A stretch of DNA of 64,000 bases from Magnetococcales bacterium. Its GTDB lineage: Bacteria > Pseudomonadota > Magnetococcia > Magnetococcales > JADFYX01. Made by a program: the position numbers and the translations under genes. The stretch is from contig JADFZU010000001.1 of the NCBI GenBank assembly GCA_015232365.1, positions 42,640 to 106,639 on the forward strand, written 5' to 3'. The notes below the pieces were generated by a model. It ran no database searches, had not been told where the DNA came from, and was given only the letters and a program-made list of their open reading frames with translations. Of the stretch, positions 4,141 through 47,497 are shown one piece after another (position 1 is the first letter of the stretch; each line of letters starts with the position of its first letter).

Positions 4141-4151
4141 GTTACATTAAA

Positions 4152-4312
4152 CCTGGATTCGGCAGTTGTTCATACATAACTGGCACAACCTCTTGATTCA
4201 TCTGGCAAATCAGAAAAAAGTCTCATCACCAACAAGGTGACTTTTATTTTTCCTGATTCACCAGGTAAACCAATTAGTTATCCCATTAATGCACGACCAA
4301 CTACCAAATCTA
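4152..4312. repeat. Dispersed ~160-bp full-length imperfect palindrome, copy 1
   Basis: The 5' arm GGATTCGGCAGTTGTTCATACAT...CTGGCAAATCAGAAAAA aligns along its length to the reverse complement of the 3' arm (AGATTTGGTAGTTGGTCGTGCAT...CTGGTGAATCAGGAAAAA). Apex is TCACCAACAAGGTGA. Similar to copies at 6954 and 47291. Confidence 0.85.
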
Positions 4313-4358
4313 TGTTAAACGGTTGTAGCTAAAAAAATGATTTTTTTTGAGGTGAGTT

Positions 4359-14094: not shown

Positions 14095-14283
14095 AGATTC
14101 CCCTGCGGTGCATGTGAGGCGTGGCATTCTCCTGAGCCGATACTCATGAACCTAGGAAACCTGCTCTGATTGTGGAGTGCATGCTCTCTTTATTGGGAGA
14201 TCCACAGAAGCGATTATTCGGGTGTCCGCTCTTAACGAAGGGTTCAGAGAAAGCACTCCAACGGTACAGGCGGGGGATTTTTC
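14095..14283 (+). ncRNA. ssrS: 6S RNA
   Basis: Contains TCCTGAGCCGATACTCATGAACC (E. coli 6S has CCCTGAGCCGATATTTCATACC), GAGTGCATGCTC, and AACGAAGGGTTCAGAG. Closing stem ATTCCCCTGC / GCGGGGGAT. Lies between zapA and the 5-FCL gene, the conserved ssrS location. Confidence 0.88.
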
Positions 14284-32515: not shown

Positions 32516-33022
32516 CTACTGGGCTTCAGGAGCAGCTGCTGCTGGTGCAGGAGCAGCTGGTGCTACTGGTGGTGGACCGTAAGGGCCAGGACCGTATCCG
32601 TAAGGACCGCCGTAGCCATTGTTCCAGCCGTTGTTGTTCCGCCAGTTGTTGTTGTTGTTCCAGTTGTTATTGTTACGCCAGTCGTTGTTGTTCCGCCAGT
32701 CGTTGCTGTTGCTCCAGTCGTTGTTTCCAGATCCAGAACCGTCAGCGTCGCCACTCATGTTGAAACCAAAGTTACCTTTAGCACGGCCGTTTCCTCTGCC
32801 GTTGTTCTTCCAGTTGTTGGAATTGTTCCAGTTATTGTTATTGGCATTGTTCCAACCATTGTTCCAGTTGTTACCATTGTTCCAGTTGTTGCCATTGTTG
32901 CCCCAACCGTTGTTCCAAGGGTTCCAATTGTTACCACCCCATGCAGATGCGTCGCCAGCAGAAATCATAGCGGCACCGCCGATAAGAGCAGCAATTGCCA
33001 ATACGCGGATTGTTTTTTTCAT
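32516..33022 (-). CDS. Secreted Asn/Trp/Gly-repeat protein, sulfur-globule-protein-like
   Basis: Signal peptide MKKTIRVLAIAALIGGAAMISAGDASA; repeats WNNGNNWNNGWNNANNNNWNN; GRGNGRAKGNFGFNMSGDADGSGSG; C-terminal GYGGPYGYGPGPYGPPPVAPAAPAPAAA. Alternative start at 33028. Confidence 0.7.
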   Translation of the reverse strand: MKKTIRVLAIAALIGGAAMISAGDASAWGGNNWNPWNNGWGNNGNNWNNGNNWNNGWNNANNNNWNNSNNWKNNGRGNGRAKGNFGFNMSGDADGSGSGNNDWSNSNDWRNNNDWRNNNNWNNNNNWRNNNGWNNGYGGPYGYGPGPYGPPPVAPAAPAPAAAAPEAQ

Positions 33023-33077
33023 GATCATTTCACTCCATTGTAAAAAAGATGAATACACTAGTTAATTTAATAAACTA

Positions 33078-33527
33078 CTACCACCCCCACGGGCCAGGAC
33101 CTCCCCGACCACCAGGGCCTCCCCAACCGCCGGGACCTCCCCAACCGTTGTTTGAGCCATTATTGAAGAAGTTCGAGGAGCGGTTGTTGTTGTAGTTTGT
33201 CCAACCGTTGTCCCAAAAGTTACCCCAATTACCATCTGTTACTGCATCAACATCTACTTCAGCATGTACTTCAAAATCGAAACGTCCATCACCACGAGCA
33301 AAACCTTCAGCTAAGTTGCTCCAGTTGTTGCCGTTGTTCCAACCATTGTTCCAGTTGTTGCCGTTGTTCCAAGAGTTGTTATGGTTGTTGCCGTTGTTCC
33401 AACCATTATTCCCGTTATTCCAGCCTCCAGGCCATCCACCCCAGGCATGAGCTTTTGAAGAGTTTATGATTGCAAAGCCACCGCAAAGCAGTGCTACAAT
33501 TAACAGTTGAATGGTTCTGTTACGCAT
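33078..33527 (-). CDS. Second secreted Asn/Trp/Gly-repeat protein, sulfur-globule-protein-like (paralogue of the previous gene)
   Basis: Signal peptide IQLLIVALLCGGFAIINSSKAHA; GWPGGWNNGNNGWNNGNNHNNSWNNGNNWNNGWNNGNNW; GDGRFDFEVHAEVDVDA; C-terminal GGPGGWGGPGGRGGPGPWGW. Confidence 0.7.
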   Translation of the reverse strand: MRNRTIQLLIVALLCGGFAIINSSKAHAWGGWPGGWNNGNNGWNNGNNHNNSWNNGNNWNNGWNNGNNWSNLAEGFARGDGRFDFEVHAEVDVDAVTDGNWGNFWDNGWTNYNNNRSSNFFNNGSNNGWGGPGGWGGPGGRGGPGPWGW

Positions 33528-47225: not shown

Positions 47226-47290
47226 GAAATATTCTATTTTATCGGTTAAACAGTTATGTAAATGTTTTTTTTTGATAATCTGCTATTATG

Positions 47291-47450
47291 CTGATTCAGC
47301 AGTTGTAAGCTCGCAGCAGTCACAACCCTTGATTCACCTGGTAAATCAGAAAAAGGTCTTGTCACCAACAAGGTGACTTCGATTTTTTCTAATTTACCAG
47401 ATAAACCAATATGTTGCACATTCTACACACTTCCAGCTGCCGAATTTGGA
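47291..47450. repeat. Dispersed ~160-bp imperfect palindrome, copy 3
   Basis: CTGATTCAGCAGTTGTAAG...CCTGGTAAATCAGAAAAAGG...TCACCAACAAGGTGA...TTTTTCTAATTTACCAG...CTTCCAGCTGCCGAATTTGG. Confidence 0.85.
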
Positions 47451-47497
47451 TTATACACCAGGTAATTTTTTGAACCCGTTAAATGAGGTGTTGCTCA

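Follow-up and report, generated by a model that had tools for sequence, protein, structure and literature searches.

A reading of the sequence alone had picked out three palindromes of about 160 bp in a 64,000-nucleotide stretch of a Magnetococcales genome (the window). It offered two interpretations: a mobile palindromic element of the MITE or REP type, or a structured 3' untranslated region or RNA. The palindromes raise the question of whether they move, whether their fold is kept, and at what level. All three lie where that sequence-only reading had placed them, with bounds that we refined to 160 to 163 bp. R1, a covariance model based on 32 copies, matched exactly these three in the window, with rough E-values of 2.8e-35, 8.9e-21, and 3.7e-29. 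Their features are listed below, where the sense strand is the best-folding strand.

4147-4151: left target-site duplication of copy 1, TTAAA
4152-4314, minus (sense) strand: copy 1, 163 bp; predicted fold of -83 kcal/mol on the sense strand versus -42 kcal/mol
4152-4168, plus strand: terminal inverted repeat of copy 1, CCTGGATTCGGCAGTTG
4298-4314, minus strand: terminal inverted repeat at the opposite end of copy 1, diverged
4315-4319: right target-site duplication of copy 1, TTAAA
6954-7115, minus strand: copy 2, 162 bp, decayed, without a clean target duplication
47285-47289: left target-site duplication of copy 3, ATTAT
47290-47449, minus strand: copy 3, 160 bp (covariance-model bounds 47289-47450)
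47450-47454: right target-site duplication of copy 3, ATTAT

The window also holds about 0.8 kb of imperfect short tandem repeats with GTTGTTCCA-type units (32606-33417), which are probably a low-complexity coding region.

Size and distribution of the family

The palindromes had been taken for members of a dispersed family, and the rest of the genome (a draft, 83% complete; G000) bears this out. A BLAST search of G000 with copy 1 returned at least 40 copies among the 40 candidates scored, and R1 located about 106 distinct places, of which 73 are 160 to 166 bp long and 15 are 101 to 104 bp long. This copy number is far beyond chance. Across the phylum, the element is carried by 27 of 399 sampled genomes, which belong to the Magnetococcales and to one further family (f18) that we read as Zetaproteobacteria. 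These represent two classes of aquatic bacteria. All genomes are drafts, mostly metagenome-assembled genomes (MAGs), in which copies are often cut by contig ends. Full copies are mostly 160 to 163 bp, and the 163-bp length is kept in several families and in one gammaproteobacterial MAG. Single matches occur in MAGs of Lysobacterales, Chromatiaceae, and Nitrospinota. The Nitrospinota copy (nPCRbin9) is near-identical to the Magnetococcales type and sits on a 3.6-kb contig; it may reflect transfer or a misbinned contig. Matches to the apical pattern in Bacillus, Flavobacterium, and other unrelated genomes were set aside as probably due to chance, and R1 matched none of those that were searched.

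The family has no match in Rfam. An Rfam scan of the window matched only a 6S RNA (14097-14280, 85.2 bits), and a separate search with one element copy returned two miRNA hairpin models only, both far below their cut-offs. Likewise, we found no description of the element in the literature on IS1380 with MITEs or on MITEs of Magnetococcales and Zetaproteobacteria.

Ends, target duplications, and a candidate transposase

Aligned copies have common ends, CCTAGA..CGGCAGTTG, which lie between 5-bp duplications. In G000, the 17-bp ends gave 109 matches with up to two mismatches, versus 2 for a reversed control pattern. Among 126 copies from nine genomes, the 5-bp duplication is perfect at 77 and agrees in at least four of five positions at 98; control flanks taken 40 bp farther out reached the latter level in 5 of 124 cases. 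Every one of the 77 perfect duplications has T as its second and A as its fourth base, which gives the target form xTNAx. Empty sites complete the picture. At the ispF-argS locus, where copy 1 resides, genome G003 has an empty site with a single TTAAA. Among the congeners of the window's genome, the site is empty in G002, holds a decayed copy of the element in G004, and retains a remnant of one end in G001.

Mobility of the element is thus near certain. Given its terminal inverted repeats, 5-bp duplications, and empty sites, the element is a MITE, that is, a non-autonomous DNA transposon, as one of the two original interpretations held; the roughly 100 copies and an IS1380-family partner in one zetaproteobacterium fit the same interpretation. 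REP and REPIN elements are palindromes of 20 to 40 nt that bear a GTAG- or CGTC-type tag and lack target duplications and terminal repeats. The comparison with REP sequences therefore fails for an element of 163 bp that has both.

Shorter and composite forms accompany the full-length copies. The discrete 103-bp class occupies 15 places in G000, and G004 contains 47- to 48-bp miniatures with the same ends and 5-bp duplications of their own. Several loci in G004 carry solo ends, in which one terminal repeat and a variable stretch of arm, more commonly the right arm, are followed by unrelated sequence. These are one-sided remnants or 47- to 48-bp derivatives, and they may have arisen by one-sided deletion or by another process. 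In a further G004 copy (L276, contig C277, 1022-2419), an insert of about 1.2 kb with what reads as an IS110-type transposase gene lies in the apical loop; IS110 elements may target the MITE hairpin.

What moves the element? The best candidate comes from G161, a zetaproteobacterium with many copies of a 1,670-bp insertion sequence (IS) whose protein matches the transpos_IS1380 model (NF033539; 313.6 bits against a cut-off of 180). This IS ends in CCTAAATCCTGCAAGTG and the local MITE in CCTAGATCCTGCAAGTG, so that the 17-bp ends agree at 16 of 17 positions (CCTARATCCTGCAAGTG). Both mostly use 5-bp TNNNA targets: duplications of the IS include TACCA, TATCA, TAATA, TTTTA, and TTACA, and those of MITEs with the G161-type end include TAATA, TAACA, TCTCA, TCTTA, TATGA, and TGATA. 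Several of the IS copies have mismatched flanks or duplications that depart from the T...A form (AGATA, TCACC). The IS and the MITE thus match in end, duplication length, and target within this lineage, and the CC..GAT end type and 5-bp duplications link the MITE to IS1380-family elements in general. Unlike those elements, the MITE encodes no transposase and is only 163 bp long. The end is the only part that it has in common with the G161 IS, so IS1380 transposition is not obviously hairpin dependent.

For the Magnetococcales type, whose target is xTNAx rather than TNNNA, the partner is less direct. Proteins matching NF033539 are present in the window's genus, but their elements end in CCCGGAT and were set aside as parents; G001 and G003 had no IS1380 match, and no IS with a CGGCAGTTG end was found in Magnetococcales. 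A search for paired ends in five genomes (G003, G004, G009, G015, and G032) found no autonomous partner, the sole pair, 1.4 kb apart, being the IS110-type insert in a MITE apical loop. A parent transposase, which had been suggested as something to look for, is therefore matched by the IS1380 partner in G161 and by none with CGGCAGTTG ends in Magnetococcales. Sequence agreement in G161 makes the IS1380 family a well-supported, likely mobilizer, and we infer from that genome that an IS1380 transposase would also move the Magnetococcales type.

Pairing on one strand, between lineages and within a genome

Over its full 163 nt, one strand is predicted to form a single hairpin of about 75 bp whose apical loop (CACCTTRTTGGTG) and internal loops are fixed, a regularity that suggests protein recognition. 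The choice of strand matters. The consensus of the G000 copies folds at -67 kcal/mol on the plus strand and -104 kcal/mol on the reverse strand, a difference that arises because almost every transition mismatch between the arms reads as A.C on the former and as G.U on the latter. For the same reason, RNAalifold found no structure in the plus-strand G000 alignment, which models the A.C side, and recovered the hairpin from the reverse strand. In 124 of 126 copies the more stable predicted fold is that of the sense strand, with a median difference of about 30 kcal/mol; copy 2 of the window is one of the two exceptions. The right arm also carries an IHF-like motif, WATCAANNNNTTR (sense positions 117-129), which is exact in 22 of 41 lineage representatives and has at most one mismatch in 34 of 41; its four N columns vary, and the mirror arm mostly differs from it by one mismatch. 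If the motif is real, bending by IHF would help to draw the ends together, as in some other small elements, a lead that we draw by analogy.

The arms had been described as differing between copies while staying complementary. This proved correct between lineages and wrong within G000. Using 41 lineage representatives, RNAalifold predicted 59 pairs, 47 of which show compensatory double changes. Covariation between lineages was 0.483, compared with 0.220 ± 0.007 in shuffled alignments (0 of 500 as high); slid pairings reached no more than 0.121. Within G000, covariation (0.131) did not exceed that of shuffles (0.128 ± 0.005). The representatives are related to one another, and kinship was addressed by the slid controls and by counting changes on a tree (FastTree phylogeny, Fitch reconstruction). 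That count gave 89 compensatory double changes. Re-paired columns yielded 5.4 ± 2.7, with a maximum of 15, and slid pairings never more than 14.

Departures from Watson-Crick pairing point in the same direction. When each position i was paired with its mirror position 164-i, there were 1,103 G.U and 214 A.C cells, and about 10 positions are G.U in most copies. In the founder consensus of G000, the 70 pairs of the structure include 10 G.U and no A.C; the use of the sense strand to define these pairs favors G.U, a bias from which the mirror count is free. Among decaying G000 copies, new departures from Watson-Crick pairing were evenly divided, with 114 G.U and 117 A.C (P = 0.90). The even ratio implies that mutation is symmetric and that the structure is not enforced in resident copies. 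Set against the 10:0 of the founder, it indicates that pairing is kept in spreading lineages rather than in resident copies and that one strand is favored. Because resident copies lose the fold without compensation, the importance of the fold appears to lie in propagation rather than at individual insertion sites. Strand-specific selection on the hairpin is well supported by these comparisons. The idea of a kept structure accordingly survives as a one-strand hairpin in spreading lineages, and not as a host function at each site.

A mechanism can be proposed on this basis. An IS1380-family transposase would most likely recognize the 17-bp ends, and insertion into an AT-rich site (xTNAx, or TNNNA in the zetaproteobacterial type) would duplicate 5 bp. 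Spreading lineages keep one strand foldable into the ~75-bp hairpin, with its fixed loops and about 10 fixed G.U pairs. At some step of the element's cycle that strand would fold, either as single-stranded DNA or, as we favor given the persistence of the G.U pairs, as RNA. The folded strand would in turn either promote efficient transposition or allow a new insertion to be tolerated. We assign a probability of roughly 0.78 to this explanation as a whole, namely an IS1380-moved MITE whose one-strand hairpin is kept for propagation. A stronger form, in which a DDE-type IS1380 MITE is licensed in cis by the hairpin, most likely as element RNA, with structure and not protein conserved across classes, is offered as a speculation that we think unlikely.

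Competing explanations and known elements

The folded strand could be single-stranded DNA instead of RNA, with a one-strand hairpin extruded during replication or transposition, as at attC sites or the ends of IS200/IS605 elements. Such a hairpin predicts strand-specific pairing equally well, and the fixed apical and internal loops resemble recognition features. However, about 10 G.T positions stay fixed although one transition at each would restore a Watson-Crick pair, and the 5-bp duplications and IS1380-type ends indicate a double-strand DDE reaction. The random orientation relative to genes is a weak argument against dependence on the replication strand. On balance, we consider folded DNA somewhat unlikely, though the most credible of the alternatives. 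Template switching at quasi-palindromes, a well-known process that gives matched changes in both arms, could instead rewrite one arm from the other and yield covariation without selection. The 47- to 48-bp deletion derivatives, with junctions at short repeats in the arms, do suggest that the hairpin affects replication. Arm rewriting would nevertheless erase the fixed internal loops and G.U positions, both of which persist across classes; it predicts no polarity between G.U and A.C, in conflict with the 10:0 consensus, and no such rewriting is seen among the resident copies of G000. We judge this neutral account improbable.

Two further possibilities assign the element a role where it sits. 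If the host maintained each copy as a structured 3' untranslated region, a terminator, or a regulatory RNA, this would fit the stable predicted fold and the closeness to gene ends: by simple ORF calls, 46 of 134 gene ends but 19 of 113 gene starts lie within 30 bp of copies. An AT-rich TNA target, often containing TAA, together with avoidance of gene interiors and promoters, would produce the same closeness to stop codons. Copies are oriented at random with respect to genes (++, 35; --, 34; +-, 32; -+, 19), resident copies decay uncompensated, and Rfam offers no family. These results argue against the original suggestion of a structured 3' untranslated region, and we regard a host RNA as the least probable reading of all. 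The accompanying statement, which placed every copy 3' of a stop codon, holds for the three in the window and does not generalize, as neighboring genes are tandem at 69 copies, convergent at 32, and divergent at 19, and three copies lie within genes. Those three are in a tRNA-synt_1c gene of G002 (L219), a nitrite/sulfite reductase gene of G004 (L163), and a protein kinase gene of G000 (L023), and in each the reading frame runs through the element. The remaining long "interrupted ORFs" looked by eye like spurious upstream frames.

In-frame copies recall the Rickettsia palindromic elements, which are palindromic, have one stop-free frame, and insert in frame within genes. A coding element selected for such insertion would account for a net insertion of 163 + 5 = 168 bp, or 56 codons, with one stop-free frame; for antisense frame 1 being open in about 90% of the 163-nt copies of G001, G002, and G004; and for the three in-frame copies in conserved genes. 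That frame shows, however, neither a synonymous bias nor a third-position signal (ratio, 1.01), stops are common in G003 and G047, the 160- to 162-bp zetaproteobacterial forms break the frame, and genic cases number only three among about 126. Because codon-level selection is absent, the genic copies look like tolerated insertions, and we hold a coding function to be very unlikely.

Several known repeats resemble the MITE in part. The bcr1 repeat is about 155 bp long. It reaches up to 130 copies per genome in the Bacillus cereus group, with mobile features and TTTAT motif repeats (PMC6542083); set side by side by description, it shares high copy number and mobile features with our element but is restricted to that group. 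YPAL/RU-2 of Yersinia (~168 bp) is closer in size and is likewise an intergenic stem-loop with empty sites and a contiguous reading frame (PMC2229807). It differs in having internal inverted repeats and duplications of variable length (3 to 26 bp; PMC2229807), where the MITE has terminal repeats and 5-bp duplications. The Correia/NEMIS elements of Neisseria are MITEs with a stem-loop transcript, and some variants have an IHF site (PMC2229807, PMC10969869), recalling the IHF-like motif described above; they differ in their 5'TA3' termini (PMC2229807) and host group. Rickettsia palindromic elements are also listed among elements with reading frames (PMC2229807), and the MITE departs from them in being mostly intergenic and free of codon selection.

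The usual view of bacterial MITEs is that they are remnants of insertion sequences in decay and that their ability to fold is incidental. In this case, a structural family of 160 to 163 nt, absent from Rfam, has kept its length, loops, and one-strand pairing in both Magnetococcales and Zetaproteobacteria, even as its individual copies decay neutrally. Decay within a genome, where G.U equals A.C, supplies the null against which founder lineages (10:0) can be tested, and the old question of whether the hairpins of MITEs have a function becomes directly testable.
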